Source: Campylobacteraceae bacterium (lineage in GTDB: Bacteria > Campylobacterota > Campylobacteria > Campylobacterales > Arcobacteraceae). Taken from it: a DNA stretch of 51,020 bases. The stretch's first letter is position 1, and every line of letters starts with the position of its first letter. A model generated the notes under the pieces. It was not told where the DNA came from and did no database searches. It saw only the letters and a list, made by a program, of their open reading frames with translations. The position numbers and the translations under genes are program-made. Shown in pieces: positions 29,956 through 49,409 of the stretch. The stretch is from assembly GCA_013215945.1 (NCBI GenBank), contig JABSOM010000019.1, forward strand, positions 1 through 51,020, read 5' to 3'.

Positions 29956-30519
29956 TTATATTTCATTTTTATTTACAATTGAATTATATTCTTGCGAATA
30001 AAAAAAATCTCCGCTATATAATTGTTCTATATAATCACTAAACCAGTCTTTTAAACTTAAGGCTACTAACTCTCTTTCTTCATAATCATGCCAAAGAGTA
30101 ATGATTTGAGCACTTCTTCCAAAACTTGTAGGATTTAAATCAATACAATAATGATCCCCTGAACCGTTAGAGGAAAAAGGTATCCATTTTTTATTCCACA
30201 AAACATCTTTAATTCCTGAGTCTGAAATAGCAGGTTTTGCAGAAAAAGTAGCTTCTTGTGAAAAGTTATTCCAATTATTCCAAGCATTAATAATTCCATG
30301 CGTTGATAAAAATTCTTGAGAATCAAACAGCCAAGCAGCTTCCCCTTTTTGTCCATTATGTATTTTTAGTATCTCAATTAAATCATTAGGCAAAACAAGA
30401 GCAAGAGTATCTGATAATTCTTGTATTTCTTCATTGCTTGCAGGAGGATTTAAATCCTCTAGTCCTTCTTTATAATTAGCACTAAGCCATTCTTTAAATC
30501 TATCAAATTCTTTTTGCAT
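29956..30519 (-). CDS. SMI1/KNR4 (SUKH) family protein
   Basis: 'LNPPASNEEIQELSDTLALVLPNDLIEILKIHNGQKGEAAWLF' and 'WIPFSSNGSGDHYCIDLNP' followed by 'GRSAQIITLWHDYEERELVALSLKDWFSDYI' are the classic features of the SMI1/KNR4 fold. SUKH proteins often serve as immunity proteins against nuclease toxins, but no toxin gene lies near, and many are housekeeping adaptors. The gene lies 59 bp downstream of the HD-GYP gene on the same strand and may be co-transcribed with the Sia-like operon. A good AAGGAG site is present. Confidence 0.88.
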   Translation of the reverse strand: MQKEFDRFKEWLSANYKEGLEDLNPPASNEEIQELSDTLALVLPNDLIEILKIHNGQKGEAAWLFDSQEFLSTHGIINAWNNWNNFSQEATFSAKPAISDSGIKDVLWNKKWIPFSSNGSGDHYCIDLNPTSFGRSAQIITLWHDYEERELVALSLKDWFSDYIEQLYSGDFFYSQEYNSIVNKNEI

Positions 30520-30578: not shown

Positions 30579-31376
30579 TTAAAAAAGATCTCTTAACGAT
30601 TCTCTAATATCTAAAAATTCATCAAGGTGTTCAAAAAATATATCTACGAGTTTTGGATCAAAGTGTTCTCCACGTTCTTTTTTAAATAAAGTAAAAATAC
30701 GATCATCGCTCCAAGCTTTTTTATAACATCTCTCGCTTCCTAAAGCGTCAAAAACATCTGCTAAAGCAGTAATTCTTCCGTAAATATGAATTTTTTCACC
30801 TTTTAATGCCTGGGGATAACCTTTTCCATTGTATTTTTCATGATGTTCATAAGCAATAGTTGCTGCGCACTTAAGCAGGGGTCTGCTTGAATGTTTTAAC
30901 ATTTCATAACCAATAAGAACATGAGTATCCATGATTATTCTCTCAGCATCAGTAAAAGACCCCGGTTTATTTAATACCAGATCAGGAATTGCTACTTTCC
31001 CTATGTCATGCATGGGACTGGCTTGGTGAATCATTTCTGCATCTTTCTCATTTAATCCATAATATAAGGCTAAAAGTTTTGAATATTTAGCAACTCTTTT
31101 TACATGATTGCCGGTCTCTTTAGAACGACTCTCGCCTATAGCTCCCATAGTAAAAATAACTTCTCTTTGCGTTTCTTCTATCTCTTTTCCTAAAGATTGA
31201 ACTTCTTTAAGTTTATCTTGCAATTGATCATAATCTTGTTTTTGTCGTTTATCACTACGTGCCATAATTTTTTCACGACGTTCGATGTCTTTTATAAGAT
31301 TATTGGTTGTTGAGAGAAAGTCTGCTTGCAAAGATTTTATTTCTAATATATGTTTGTTATCTGTTAATGTATTCAT
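30579..31376 (-). CDS. HD-GYP c-di-GMP phosphodiesterase with N-terminal helical stalk
   Basis: The domain keeps every metal ligand: 'HVKRVAKYS' (His about 89), 'HDIGKVAIPD' (about 125), 'THVLIGYEML', 'EHHEKYNGKGYP' (about 180, with the GYP triad) and 'ADVFDALG'. It should hydrolyse c-di-GMP to pGpG or GMP. Residues 1-85 form a charged helical stalk ('DIERREKIMARSDKRQKQDYDQLQ'), predicted as coiled coil. It starts 12 bp after the siaC-like gene, in the place of the diguanylate cyclase SiaD of the Pseudomonas siaABCD operon, and is similar in size (265 residues). The stalk could be the docking site of the SiaC protein. Confidence 0.93.
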   Translation of the reverse strand: MNTLTDNKHILEIKSLQADFLSTTNNLIKDIERREKIMARSDKRQKQDYDQLQDKLKEVQSLGKEIEETQREVIFTMGAIGESRSKETGNHVKRVAKYSKLLALYYGLNEKDAEMIHQASPMHDIGKVAIPDLVLNKPGSFTDAERIIMDTHVLIGYEMLKHSSRPLLKCAATIAYEHHEKYNGKGYPQALKGEKIHIYGRITALADVFDALGSERCYKKAWSDDRIFTLFKKERGEHFDPKLVDIFFEHLDEFLDIRESLRDLF

Positions 31377-31388
31377 AATATTTGTCTT

Positions 31389-31808
31389 TTAACTTTTTAA
31401 GTCAATTTTATTTTCAATTAATTGAATATTTAAAGATTTAAAACTATCTTGAAAATCTTCACCATCTTCTTTTGAACTATCATCATCTTGATTATATATC
31501 CAATTAATATTTACATCTATTTCCTTTTGGCTCTGAACAAAAATATCAATTAAATCAAACATATCAAACAGTGCTTTGGAACTACTTGAATTAAAATACG
31601 TTAAATTGAAGTTGAATATTATATTTTTCAATCTTTTATTAGACTCATCTTTAAAAAAAGTTTCTAAAGTGTTTAACAGTTGTTTATAAAATTCAAAGGT
31701 ATTTTCAGAGTATGATTTACCTTCTATACTAAAAATCCCCTTTTGAAAATCAAAATTTATTTCAGGTGTGTGCAAGGTTTTTTCGATAAATATTGTCTTG
31801 TATTTCAT
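31389..31808 (-). CDS. SiaC-like regulatory phosphoprotein (DUF1987)
   Basis: The sequence 'TLHTPEINFDFQKGIFSIEGKSYSENTFEFYKQLLNTL' and 'IIFNFNLTYFNSSSSKALFDMFDLI' are hallmarks of DUF1987. In P. aeruginosa SiaC is phosphorylated on a Thr in the N-T-S-S turn by the kinase SiaB, dephosphorylated by SiaA, and in its unphosphorylated form activates the cyclase SiaD. Here the matching residue is Ser (S74 in N-S-S-S-S). It sits between SiaB-like and HD-GYP genes (gaps 16 and 12 bp). A clear GGAGG precedes the start. Confidence 0.92.
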   Translation of the reverse strand: MKYKTIFIEKTLHTPEINFDFQKGIFSIEGKSYSENTFEFYKQLLNTLETFFKDESNKRLKNIIFNFNLTYFNSSSSKALFDMFDLIDIFVQSQKEIDVNINWIYNQDDDSSKEDGEDFQDSFKSLNIQLIENKIDLKS

Positions 31809-31824
31809 TGTTTTTCCTCCAGAT

Positions 31825-32334
31825 TTATTTATTTATTTGTACAGTAATTTCCAGCCTTGATAAGTTATCTTCTAGTTTTTTGATTTCATAAAAAATATTA
31901 TCAGACTTTCTAGCCAATTGATATAAACCGATTCCTCCACCATTTTCATGTGAAGTTTCACCACTTTTACGTAGTTCATTGTATTTTTTAGTAATTTCTT
32001 CTTTATTTAATTCGCATATATTTAATAATATATTTTCAATCTTTAAAAGCGTTTTATTATCAATATTATTTATTGCAGTAACATAATAGTTCTTTTCATC
32101 ATGCTCAATAAGAATTTTCTCACTATCATAATTATTGATATAATCTCTTTTAGAATATTTCATTACATTTTGAGATAGTTCTATAAAAACTATATATAGT
32201 CTTCTTGATATTGTTTGACTTTCTTCAATATCTTTTATTTGAACTTCTAATGCTTTTATTAAGGATAAAATTATGGCTTGTGAAAAATAACCACTGTATC
32301 CCATAAATAAAGTAGTATTTTTTTTATTACTCAT
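31825..32334 (-). CDS. SiaB-like protein kinase
   Basis: This 169-residue GHKL-type ATPase fold resembles anti-sigma-factor kinases: 'LYIVFIELSQNVMKYSKR' is the N box (with E-x-x-x-N) and 'SHENGGGIGLYQLARKS' the G box. In the Pseudomonas system SiaB phosphorylates SiaC. It overlaps the end of the SiaA-like gene by 8 bp, indicating translational coupling. No other catalytic domain is attached. Confidence 0.92.
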   Translation of the reverse strand: MSNKKNTTLFMGYSGYFSQAIILSLIKALEVQIKDIEESQTISRRLYIVFIELSQNVMKYSKRDYINNYDSEKILIEHDEKNYYVTAINNIDNKTLLKIENILLNICELNKEEITKKYNELRKSGETSHENGGGIGLYQLARKSDNIFYEIKKLEDNLSRLEITVQINK

Positions 32335-34015
32335 TATTTTTTTCTCCTGCTTCCTTTAATACATTTTTTTTAATTTTTAAGCCAATAAAACATATATCAT
32401 CCACTACTTCATACTTTCCTCTGTACGCATCAAGAATTGATGTATAAATATTTTTTTGTTCTTTAAATATTTTATGATGATTCTTATTAATCATGTTTAA
32501 TAATCTTTTTTTACCAAATCTCAACTCTTTTTTTTCGCTAATTGTATCTACAACTCCATCCGTAGTTAAATAAACCTTTATTTCCTTTTTAAAAGTAATT
32601 AACGTTTCTTCATATTCATAGTCATATTTACAAGAGGGGTAACCTACAGAATAACGATTTGAGGTAATCCATCTTGCGCAGTTTTTTTCATCCAGTATAA
32701 TTAAATTCATCATTGCACCTGCATACTTTAATAAACCAGCTCTTTTATCAATATATAAAATTCCTCCGTCAAAACCTGCATTTGATTTTGATGTATTGTT
32801 GTATTGTTGTAAAATATCTTTAATTCTTCTATTAAAGTATCCTAGAATTTTCCCTGGAGAGATTTCCATTTTCTTGTTATTTAGTTTATTAATAAGTTCG
32901 TGTTGAATTGATTTAACAATCATTGTTACAAATGCTCCTGAAATGCTGTGACCAGTACAATCAATACACATTACAAGAGATTTATTTTCATCCTTATTTA
33001 AAACATCAATGAAATAAATATCTCCACCCACTTTACTTTTGGGTTTCCAAGTAAGGAAACCATCTTCATACAAGATAGAAAGGAGTAATTTATGTGGTCG
33101 AATCGCATCTTGTAAAAGACTTGAATAATCCATCGCATCTGTTAAGTTTTTATTAATTCGAAGCAATTGTTCATTGGCATAATCAAGCTCTGCCGTTCTT
33201 TGTAAAATCTTAGATTGAAGGTTTTTATTATAATCAACAATAGTATTTGAAAACTTGTTAAAGGTTGTTATCAAGTCTCCAATTTCATCATTTTTATCTT
33301 TTTCATATTCTTTATAATCTTCTAAGTGATTCGTATTTATATAGGATAAGTAGGAGGATAATTTAGTGATTCTTGTTAGTGGATTTAAAATACCTCTAAT
33401 TATATAGTACATTACAATAGAGTATCCTAGAAGAATAATTAAAGATAAATAAAGAAGTTTATTTGTTAAATCAGAATACTTATCTTCTGTTTTTTTGGTT
33501 AAATCACTTTGAATTAAATTAATAATATCTAATATGTTTTGACCAATTTCTTTTCCATGTCCTCTTGTTAATTCATCTGCATTATGATAATCAAAATTAT
33601 CATAAACATAAACATCAATAGATTCATAATATTTCTGTATTAAAAAAATATGGCTTTTTTTAATTTTATGCAAAGCGGATGTATATTTATCAAAGAGTGG
33701 GTCTTTAAATAAAATATCCATTTCTTTATAAATTTGTGCAGATGATTTTTCTATTTTTTTAGAGTATTTATCTAAATCTTTTTTTCTAAAACCTCTTATA
33801 AAAAGATTTTTCCTATTCTTAGCTTGTTTGGAGTAATCAATATAAATAGATTCCATTCTTTGTTTAACAACAAGTATCTCTGCTGTATTTTTTTTAATAC
33901 TACTAAAACTGCCACTTACATAATAAATAAGCCCAGGAAAACTAAAAAAAAGAACTATCGAAAAAGGTATTATAACCTTTAAGGACGTTTTTTTGATACT
34001 ATCATATTTTTTCAT
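32327..34015 (-). CDS. SiaA-like membrane PP2C (SpoIIE) phosphatase
   Basis: Two membrane helices (about residues 2-24 and 183-205) enclose a roughly 155-residue extracytoplasmic helical sensor. A HAMP region (about 205-260), a coiled coil and a C-terminal SpoIIE/PP2C domain (about 300-555) follow. The metal-binding signatures 'GGDIYFIDV', 'CIDCTGHSISGAFVTMI' (D-x-T-G-H) and 'YLTTDGVVDT' are intact. It should dephosphorylate the SiaC-like protein in response to an outside signal. I place the start at ATG 34015, which has AAGG nine bases upstream; the ATG at 34045 has none. It is the first gene of a four-gene operon. Confidence 0.92.
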   Translation of the reverse strand: MKKYDSIKKTSLKVIIPFSIVLFFSFPGLIYYVSGSFSSIKKNTAEILVVKQRMESIYIDYSKQAKNRKNLFIRGFRKKDLDKYSKKIEKSSAQIYKEMDILFKDPLFDKYTSALHKIKKSHIFLIQKYYESIDVYVYDNFDYHNADELTRGHGKEIGQNILDIINLIQSDLTKKTEDKYSDLTNKLLYLSLIILLGYSIVMYYIIRGILNPLTRITKLSSYLSYINTNHLEDYKEYEKDKNDEIGDLITTFNKFSNTIVDYNKNLQSKILQRTAELDYANEQLLRINKNLTDAMDYSSLLQDAIRPHKLLLSILYEDGFLTWKPKSKVGGDIYFIDVLNKDENKSLVMCIDCTGHSISGAFVTMIVKSIQHELINKLNNKKMEISPGKILGYFNRRIKDILQQYNNTSKSNAGFDGGILYIDKRAGLLKYAGAMMNLIILDEKNCARWITSNRYSVGYPSCKYDYEYEETLITFKKEIKVYLTTDGVVDTISEKKELRFGKKRLLNMINKNHHKIFKEQKNIYTSILDAYRGKYEVVDDICFIGLKIKKNVLKEAGEKNNE

Positions 34016-34192
34016 TTCTAAAACCTTAAGTTTCCAACTTACCATTAACTAGTGTAAGTTTAGTTATCCATGTCCCTTGTAAATTACAGACAGAAGAAAC
34101 ATTAATATTGGCAAGGGCATCTTTTGTTTTTCCATGCCTTTTTTGTAATAATAAGATGCCAAATGATTTAAAGATATTTTTACTTCTCATTA

Positions 34193-47375: not shown

Positions 47376-49409
47376 CTAAATTTCTATACTTTTAGGTTCT
47401 CCTAAATAATAGCCTTGAGAATAAGTGATACCCAGTTTTTTTACTTTTTCTAAAACACTTTTAGAATGAACAAACTCTGCAACTGTCTCTATATTCTGTT
47501 TTTTTGCAAAAGTAATGATAAGTTCTGTTATAAGTAAAGACTGTTCACAGGTATCAATATTTTTGATAAATGAGCCATCTATTTTAATAAAATCAACGTT
47601 GAGTTTCATCAGGTATTCAAAATTCGAATATCCTGTTCCAAAGTCATCAATAGCAATTCTACACCCTACTGCTTGCATCTCTTTAATAAATAAAGACACT
47701 TCTTCAAAGTTATCTATTCCTTCACTCTCCACAATTTCAAAGATTACACGTTTTGCAATATCACGATTTTCTAATTTTTTATTAATAAAAACAATAGTTT
47801 CTTTATTCAGGATATCATCAAGTGTTAAATTTATTGAAAACTCTGCTTTTGAGTCTTTAAAATACTCAAAAGATTTTTCTATCACAATTCTTGTTAACTG
47901 GTGGTATAATTTGAGTTTCTTAGAGAGTTCTAAAAAATGGAAAGGAGAGATTATTTCTGCTTTTTCATTCTTCAAACGAATAAGGCATTCATACTTTTCA
48001 TCTAAGGGATTATTGTTGTTAATAATGGGCTGAATAAAAACGAGTATTCTATTATTTGCGATGGCATCTTTTAATATTTGTGTCCATTTTACATTATTTT
48101 GGTAGTTTATTTCAACATTATCTTCTTTTCGATATACAAAAAGTCTTTGTTGTTTGTTTTTTGCAATCTTAAGTGCTGTATTTGCATTAATTAAAACTTT
48201 GTCGATTGTTAAGGAAACGCCTGAAGTAATCGAAACAATAATATTGTTATTTTCTATAATAAAGGGCTCTTTTTCTATTTCTTCAAGAGCATAATCGCAT
48301 AAGTCCAAAAATGCCTTGTCTGAGATCTTACTTGAGCTTGTAAATATCCCAAATTCGTCAACTGGTAATTTGTATATAGTTATCTCTTTGTTTCCCTCAA
48401 ATAGTTTTTCAAGTAATTGTGCAATTAAAAAAAGAAGTCTGTCCGCTATTTTGGTCGAATAACAATGATTTATATCTGTAAATCTGTCAATATTTAACAC
48501 GGCCAGTTTTGGATAACTTTTATGTTTTAAAGTATGAACAAGCTTCATTCTATTGGGAAGTCCTGTTATAACCTCTTTGTATGCAATTTCAAGTTCTTCT
48601 TCTTTTCTGTATCTTTTAAGAACTTCATCATCTGCTCTGTTTTGCAAAACAAAGTTTAGACTTTTTAGTTCTTCTTCTTTTAGTTCTACTTCTTTTTTAT
48701 AATTAATAAAAATTCTGTTAATCGATCTTGAAAAGAAAAAAGAAAATATAAAAACACAAATTGTAAGTGTAAGTGATACCCAAAGAGTATAGTTTATATT
48801 CTCTTGCAGTAAATCTTTTTTTTGCTGTGTTTTAGCAAGTATACGTTGTTCAACAACGTCCATATATCCACCAATTGCAATTATCCAATTCCACTCTTCT
48901 ACATAATAAACAAAAGCAGTTTTTTCTTTTTGAACTGTTTCCCCAGGTTTTGTCCAAAAATAAGACAGATAACTGCCTTTAGGATTCTTCTTTCCCGTTT
49001 TTATTAAGTTTTCTGCGATACTTAGTCCATTAACATCTTTTAGATAAGAGGCATTAGAACCTTTTTTTAACACAGGATGAGAGATGACATTGCTTTTATC
49101 ATCTATAATATAGATATAACCATTATCTTGTGCAATGATATTTTCAATATAATTTAACGTACTCTTTTTCAGTAAAACTTTATTATTTTTGAAGTCTGAG
49201 TGTTTAATAAAACTCAAAACTTCTTGTATCTTACCTTTGAGTATTTGTTTTTCATTCAATATATAATTTTTTCTAATCTCTTTGCTCTCTTTCTTTAAAG
49301 CATCGTATTCATTATCAATTATAAAAGAAGTAAATATTAGTGTAGATATAAGAATCCCGATAAAGGGGATACTGAATATTAGTTTTGGGATATTTTTTTC
49401 AGTAAACAT
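47376..49409 (-). CDS. Cache-GGDEF(degenerate)-EAL phosphodiesterase
   Basis: The 677-residue protein has an N-terminal helix (about 10-30), a single Cache sensor (about 35-200, 'GYIYIIDDKSNVISHPVLKKGSN', 'YFWTKPGETVQKEKTAFVYYVEEWNWIIAIGGYMD'), a second helix (about 210-230), a coiled coil and two domains. The GGDEF motif reads PVDEF (about 350), so it is not a cyclase but may bind GTP. The EAL domain starts with E-C-L-I-R (about 475) and keeps D-D-F-G-T-G (about 588) and 'TVAEFV', so it is likely an active phosphodiesterase. The single Cache domain suits an amino-acid or carboxylate signal. Confidence 0.92.
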   Translation of the reverse strand: MFTEKNIPKLIFSIPFIGILISTLIFTSFIIDNEYDALKKESKEIRKNYILNEKQILKGKIQEVLSFIKHSDFKNNKVLLKKSTLNYIENIIAQDNGYIYIIDDKSNVISHPVLKKGSNASYLKDVNGLSIAENLIKTGKKNPKGSYLSYFWTKPGETVQKEKTAFVYYVEEWNWIIAIGGYMDVVEQRILAKTQQKKDLLQENINYTLWVSLTLTICVFIFSFFFSRSINRIFINYKKEVELKEEELKSLNFVLQNRADDEVLKRYRKEEELEIAYKEVITGLPNRMKLVHTLKHKSYPKLAVLNIDRFTDINHCYSTKIADRLLFLIAQLLEKLFEGNKEITIYKLPVDEFGIFTSSSKISDKAFLDLCDYALEEIEKEPFIIENNNIIVSITSGVSLTIDKVLINANTALKIAKNKQQRLFVYRKEDNVEINYQNNVKWTQILKDAIANNRILVFIQPIINNNNPLDEKYECLIRLKNEKAEIISPFHFLELSKKLKLYHQLTRIVIEKSFEYFKDSKAEFSINLTLDDILNKETIVFINKKLENRDIAKRVIFEIVESEGIDNFEEVSLFIKEMQAVGCRIAIDDFGTGYSNFEYLMKLNVDFIKIDGSFIKNIDTCEQSLLITELIITFAKKQNIETVAEFVHSKSVLEKVKKLGITYSQGYYLGEPKSIEI

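Follow-up and report, generated by a model that had tools for sequence, protein, structure and literature searches.

An HD-GYP protein with a predicted SiaC-docking helix in a SiaABC-type operon of a Campylobacteraceae bacterium

A 51,020-nucleotide stretch of the genome of a Campylobacteraceae bacterium (contig JABSOM010000019.1 of assembly GCA_013215945.1; hereafter the window) carries, on its minus strand at positions 30579-34045, four tightly spaced genes that encode a SiaA-like phosphatase, a SiaB-like kinase, a SiaC-like phosphoprotein and, at the position of the diguanylate cyclase gene siaD, an HD-GYP protein. We propose that they form a SiaABC-type partner switch in which SiaC would dock on the N-terminal stalk of the HD-GYP protein and thereby activate a phosphodiesterase of cyclic dimeric guanosine monophosphate (c-di-GMP), and we give this reading as a whole a probability of roughly 0.62. 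In the literature we found, SiaC is the activator of one diguanylate cyclase only; the same predicted docking site stands here on a predicted enzyme of opposite activity and, in relatives, on enzymes of further classes.

The four-gene locus is confirmed by Pfam and PDB matches (Table 1) and by its spacing: siaB overlaps siaA by 8 bp, and gaps of 16 bp and 12 bp separate siaB from siaC and siaC from the HD-GYP gene. An earlier note on this DNA, made from the letters alone, had proposed these four close-coupled genes at 30579-34015; its assignments and placement were right, except that the siaA start at 34015 is an internal Met and the gene extends to 34045. The SiaA-like protein has, by eye, an N-terminal membrane/sensor region and a HAMP-like linker, followed by a PP2C/SpoIIE domain; residues 271-556 align with the SiaA-PP2C structure of Pseudomonas aeruginosa (6k4e), including the coiled coil before the PP2C domain, and the Asp residues of the GGD, DCTGH, TDG, and DD motifs are aligned with those of SiaA. 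In the SiaB-like kinase, FIELSQN aligns with YIEMTQN of SiaB (6kko). The modelled SiaC part superposes on SiaC structures at 1.5-2.2 Å, and its phospho-site reads YFN-S-S-S where P. aeruginosa has YLN-T-S-S, which places Ser74 at the position of T68. The note had given Ser as the phospho-site residue, and this stands, but the change is not peculiar to the window, as Ser is the usual residue in the loci that we collected, irrespective of the partner. We therefore rejected the Ser-for-Thr change as a mark of inverted output. Carried over from P. aeruginosa (PMC7647112, PMC8457831), SiaC would be under reversible phosphorylation by SiaB and SiaA.

In the crystal structure of the SiaC-SiaD complex (7e6g), T68 of SiaC meets S82 and Q86 of SiaD, SiaC residues next to T68 contact Q86 and D83, and further SiaD contacts are made by R74, K77, V78, R80, I81, R84, Y85, M88, R90, and D91 (PMC8457831). 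The stalk of the window HD-GYP protein is predicted as a single unbroken helix (residues 8-84), in keeping with the helical stalk described in the earlier note, and a motif alignment places its residues R33, K36, I37, A39, R40, S41, D42, K43, R44, Q45, Q47, Y49, and D50 at SiaD positions 74, 77, 78, 80-86, 88, 90, and 91. Eight of these 13 contacts are kept, six as identities (R74, K77, S82, D83, Q86, and D91) and two conservatively (V78I and R84K). All three SiaD residues at the phospho-site loop (S82, D83, and Q86) are among them, so that the S-D-x-x-Q core is intact, and on the SiaC side Y31, Y65, N67, S69, and D79 are kept, while T68 is replaced by Ser74. The contact positions are better conserved than the remainder of the HD-GYP stalk (p 0.0006, HD-GYP stalk set, from which no siaC-adjacent HD-GYP was dropped for want of the motif). 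We do not cite the corresponding test on the mixed stalk set, which is partly circular because its rows were selected with the motif pattern; a DNA pattern for SDKxQ was likewise set aside as too loose, with 40 matches against 30 for the reversed pattern. On the sequence evidence, here and below, SiaC very probably docks on the HD-GYP stalk.

Profile searches extended the comparison beyond single residues. A mixed profile of 25 rows, built from the stalks of siaC neighbours of Campylobacterota with SiaD left out, was run against the whole PDB, and its top match was SiaD (7e6g, E 5.6e-4), with both known SiaC-binding motifs matched. A profile made from HD-GYP stalks only scored the SiaD stalk above 23 control linkers, and the HD-GYP stalks, compared profile to profile, aligned with the stalks that other kinds of output carry in other phyla (92%, E 5e-7), against 0.3% for control linkers. 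As an independent test, stalks of non-HD outputs from other phyla, namely of kinases, cyclases, and GGDEF proteins, were made into a profile, which matched 10 Campylobacterota genomes, nine of which are SiaC-positive (Fisher 8e-12).

The stalk also tracks SiaC across genomes. In a survey of Campylobacterota DUF1987 genes and their outputs, which the earlier note had proposed, SiaC was found in 22 of 397 genomes (21 above the Pfam cut-off) and the stalk profile in 17, all of them within the SiaC-positive set (Fisher 9e-26, a value that is partly circular because the profile was trained on siaC neighbourhoods). Not circular is the absence of any match to the profile in the 375 SiaC-negative genomes, though HD-GYP genes are common in the family. 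Together with the largely conserved SiaD contact residues, this gives the coupling of SiaC to the stalk, as claimed in the note, sequence support beyond adjacency. The arrangement is not peculiar to the locus: the genome contains a further copy, and others are found across Campylobacterota and Gammaproteobacteria.

The HD-GYP gene might merely co-occur with siaABC, and SiaC might have its true partner encoded at another place in the genome, be it a diguanylate cyclase or some other protein. About 48 GGDEF stretches are present there, next to eight HD_5 domains and two SiaC genes, and SiaD is the sole partner demonstrated in the literature that we found. However, the stalk profile matches exactly two proteins of this genome, both of them siaC-adjacent HD-GYPs, and none of the six other HD-GYPs has the stalk. 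No GGDEF stretch among the 48 scored above the profile's threshold, and a sensitive local search for the stalk in 30 GGDEF loci gave nothing better than E 0.14. The note had named a genuine SiaD cyclase elsewhere, acting as the partner of SiaC, as a finding that would speak against its proposal; these searches detected no GGDEF protein with the stalk. As stalked HD-GYPs also adjoin siaC in many species, we regard mere co-occurrence as very unlikely.

For the fourth gene Pfam reports only HD_5/HD domains, and the GGDEF catalytic domain that would mark a SiaD is absent from these matches. Its nearest solved relative is PmGH, an active c-di-GMP phosphodiesterase (PMC4159591). The eight PmGH metal ligands, K225, D308, G-Y-P, R314, and K317 are kept without change in the window HD-GYP and 34 relatives, and the E-T-G signature (E87-T88-G89) puts the protein, by sequence, in the PmGH group described in that paper. 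PmGH forms dimers by way of its GAF domain and of the helix preceding its HD-GYP domain (PMC4159591), and the stalk occupies the position of this helix in the window protein. We file the protein as a member of the HD-GYP family and not as a proven enzyme.

Several observations weigh against this reading. The SiaC alpha3-side contacts R103, L107, and, in the window copy, D114 are not conserved; SiaD residues R80, I81, Y85, M88, and R90 differ in the window stalk; and the HD-GYP stalk has a single docking motif against two in SiaD. The HD-GYP-only profile does not reach SiaD in the whole-PDB search, where it found nothing credible, and the non-HD profile of other phyla does not retrieve the HD-GYP stalks; therefore we regard the HD-GYP stalks, at the sequence level, as a diverged version or subfamily of the docking stalk. 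As siaC and the HD-GYP gene share a frame, their read-through translation, with Gly in place of the TAA stop, was modelled from a partly paired alignment to look for docking. The model reached a predicted template modelling score of 0.55 and did not display docking; the domains and the stalk are well folded, their relative placement is not fixed, and we count the model neither way. Last, PmGH D183 is not a metal ligand, but its replacement by alanine abolishes activity (PMC4159591); the window protein has Ser85 at this position, and Ser stands there in 35 of 35 sequences. This refines the earlier claim that all HD and GYP residues are kept, which is true of the eight metal ligands and GYP.

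The same Ser appears at the aligned position in V-cGAP3, which is specific for cyclic GMP-AMP, and a c-di-GMP-bound HD-GYP domain has been solved in DvhD (9rbz), from a study of this D. vulgaris c-di-GMP receptor (PMC13090378). The window domain could thus be a c-di-GMP receptor, or a hydrolase of another cyclic dinucleotide, gated by SiaC. Yet the protein retains the substrate residues R314 and K317 together with all eight metal ligands and bears the E-T-G signature of the PmGH group, which argues for a c-di-GMP phosphodiesterase instead and makes a receptor or a hydrolase of altered specificity improbable.

We hypothesize that SiaB phosphorylates Ser74 of SiaC and that SiaA, responding to a membrane signal, would dephosphorylate it. 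Unphosphorylated SiaC would then dock on the N-terminal helix of the HD-GYP protein at R33-D50, with Ser74 inserted beside S41 and Q45 in the way that T68 meets S82 and Q86 of SiaD. Docked SiaC would stabilise a parallel stalk dimer, and phosphorylation of Ser74 would block docking. By analogy with SiaD, docking would most likely turn the phosphodiesterase on, so that the signal would have the reverse of its effect in Pseudomonas, where it raises c-di-GMP: with SiaC unphosphorylated, c-di-GMP would fall. Of this scheme the sequence itself establishes the four genes, the active-site residues, and the correspondence to the docking motif, whereas binding, its control by phosphorylation, and the direction are predicted. 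The direction, taken from SiaD and from the architecture of PmGH, is the less certain step. SiaC might instead inhibit the HD-GYP protein on docking: the phosphodiesterase would then be active by itself and kept off by unphosphorylated SiaC, which would leave the output sign as in Pseudomonas, with c-di-GMP rising when SiaC is dephosphorylated. The docking evidence is identical for both directions, nothing in the sequence indicates what docking does, and inhibition of the opposing enzyme would rewire the pathway economically while its output sign stays the same. Yet SiaD is stabilised as an active dimer when SiaC docks (PMC8457831), and because the PmGH dimer, in the nearest HD-GYP structure, is built on the pre-catalytic helix (PMC4159591), a stabilised helix more plausibly favours the active form. 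We therefore favour activation and consider inhibition unlikely.

A second siaB-siaC-HD-GYP set lies in the same genome (L003, 6445-8313), with the docking motif at S60-Q64 and no siaA adjoining. As only four SpoIIE-type phosphatase matches are found in the genome, the two sets may share one phosphatase. In the nearest named relative of the window, Arcobacter sp. NORP36 (L114), siaC lies within a frame of 313 residues with about 170 extra codons upstream over the siaB region, a possible fusion or frame shift.

To address how widely the stalk is distributed, we collected 80 named siaC loci, ranked by similarity to the window SiaC and so biased to its relatives; many of the records are metagenome-assembled, and organism names are as deposited. 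A stalk gene is present in 69 of the 80 and lies within 50 bp of siaC in 52. The stalk belongs to an HD-GYP in 39 loci (33 of the compact type and six of another HD-GYP type), from Campylobacterota, Marinobacterium, Vibrio, Pseudoalteromonas, Colwellia, Thiomicrospira, Methylococcaceae, and others. Elsewhere it is carried by a histidine kinase, a hybrid kinase with receiver and Hpt domains, a HATPase-CheX protein, a class III cyclase (e.g. Desulfobacterales and Gallionella), or a GGDEF protein (e.g. Nitrospirae and Cupriavidus). Some operons have two stalk genes, such as a histidine kinase and an HD-GYP flanking one siaC (L032, L041, and L129). Two candidates for a stalked HD-GYP together with an intact stalked cyclase in one operon were dropped: L177 has SGDSF in place of the GGDEF motif, and Pfam does not recognise the GGDEF of L121. 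In a tree of the HD-GYP catalytic domains, the stalked proteins do not form one group, with seven label changes, at least three of them forced by well-supported branches; docking helix and HD domains have therefore probably been joined more than once.

Since the stalk stands on HD-GYPs, histidine kinases, class III cyclases, and GGDEF or CheX-type proteins, SiaABC looks like a general partner switch. It is likely that SiaC serves as the adaptor of such a plug-in system, with a transferable docking helix joined to at least six kinds of output: the HD-GYP phosphodiesterase (more than once), the GGDEF cyclase, the class III nucleotide cyclase, the histidine kinase, the hybrid kinase with receiver and Hpt, and the HATPase-CheX protein. 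If true, one phosphorylation module could push c-di-GMP up or down, produce a different cyclic nucleotide, or signal into a phosphorelay, and the wide spread of SiaC (DUF1987) genes would be explained. The stalk also offers a sequence signature for finding SiaC partners, and rewiring one switch to reverse its output by moving a helix becomes testable.

Other features of the collected loci were recorded. In L031 (9101-9334), a 77-residue open reading frame between two other stalk genes beside siaC consists of the stalk with its docking motif and no catalytic domain, and its product could compete for SiaC. CheY-like receiver genes stand between siaA and siaB or beside siaC in L034 (6160-6516), L037 (5667-6035), L121 (6048-6440), L129 (6618-7016), and L144 (6048-6434), two of the five being assigned by Pfam and the others by eye, and may point to a second input. 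HD proteins of about 450 residues that carry the stalk and have a long stretch inserted between their HD and GYP halves adjoin siaC in L030 (7208-8572 and 8688-10115), L033 (7408-8772), and L035 (6005-7363 and 7816-9195). In the window itself, a SUKH-1 (SMI1/KNR4) gene (29956-30519) follows the HD-GYP gene by 59 bp on the same strand, and a 677-residue protein (47376-49409) has a weak, probably degenerate GGDEF domain (E 8e-11).

Table 1. Genes and predicted sites of the siaABC/HD-GYP locus in the window
Feature	Position	Strand	Evidence
SiaA-like membrane phosphatase, 572 residues	32327..34045	-	PF07228 (SpoIIE PP2C) 3.2e-14; 6k4e 1e-33
SiaB-like GHKL-type kinase, 169 residues	31825..32334	-	PF19788 (DUF6272) 3.3e-23; 6kko SiaB 9e-8
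SiaC-like phosphoprotein, 139 residues	31389..31808	-	PF09345 6.6e-37; 6kko/6k4f SiaC 1e-13
Ser74 codon of the SiaC-like protein, predicted phospho-acceptor	31587..31589	-	alignment to P. aeruginosa SiaC T68
HD-GYP output protein (putative enzyme), 265 residues, at the siaD position	30579..31376	-	PF13487 (HD_5) 4.5e-30; PmGH 4mcw 5e-60
Predicted SiaC-docking segment of the HD-GYP stalk, R33-D50	31227..31280	-	residue map to SiaC-SiaD contacts of PMC8457831; stalk profile with SiaD first in PDB
Core of the predicted docking segment, S41-D42-K43-R44-Q45	31242-31256	-	part of HD-GYP stalk R33-D50

As the earlier note had supposed, no paper describing a SiaC-HD-GYP pairing or a SiaC-regulated HD-GYP was found in the literature searched, subscription papers lying mostly outside its coverage. 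The closest known system is SiaABCD of P. aeruginosa (7e6g; PMC8457831, PMC7647112), in which one operon likewise encodes a PP2C phosphatase, a DUF6272 kinase, and SiaC; the output enzyme encoded after them has a long helix at its N-terminus, and the SiaC-contact residues of this helix are largely kept in the window HD-GYP. The systems differ in that the predicted output is an HD-GYP phosphodiesterase here and a GGDEF cyclase there, with one docking motif and a Ser phospho-site in the window against two motifs and Thr in P. aeruginosa; CheY-like genes in several operons related to that of the window are a further difference. The HD-GYP protein resembles PmGH (4mcw; PMC4159591) in the eight metal ligands, GYP, and the long helix before the catalytic domain, with 48% identity over the aligned structure, whereas PmGH has an N-terminal GAF domain and D183 where the window protein has the stalk only and Ser. 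In HptB-HsbR-HsbA with the diguanylate cyclase HsbD and in BgrSTUWV with BgrR (named in PMC8457831), a partner-switch phosphoprotein also controls a c-di-GMP enzyme, but these have STAS phosphoproteins and cyclase outputs, while the phosphoprotein here belongs to PF09345. The authors of the eLife study proposed that DUF1987 proteins modulate adjacent proteins (PMC8457831), and for this idea the docking helix described above offers a possible recognition element, and its carriers a set of partners.

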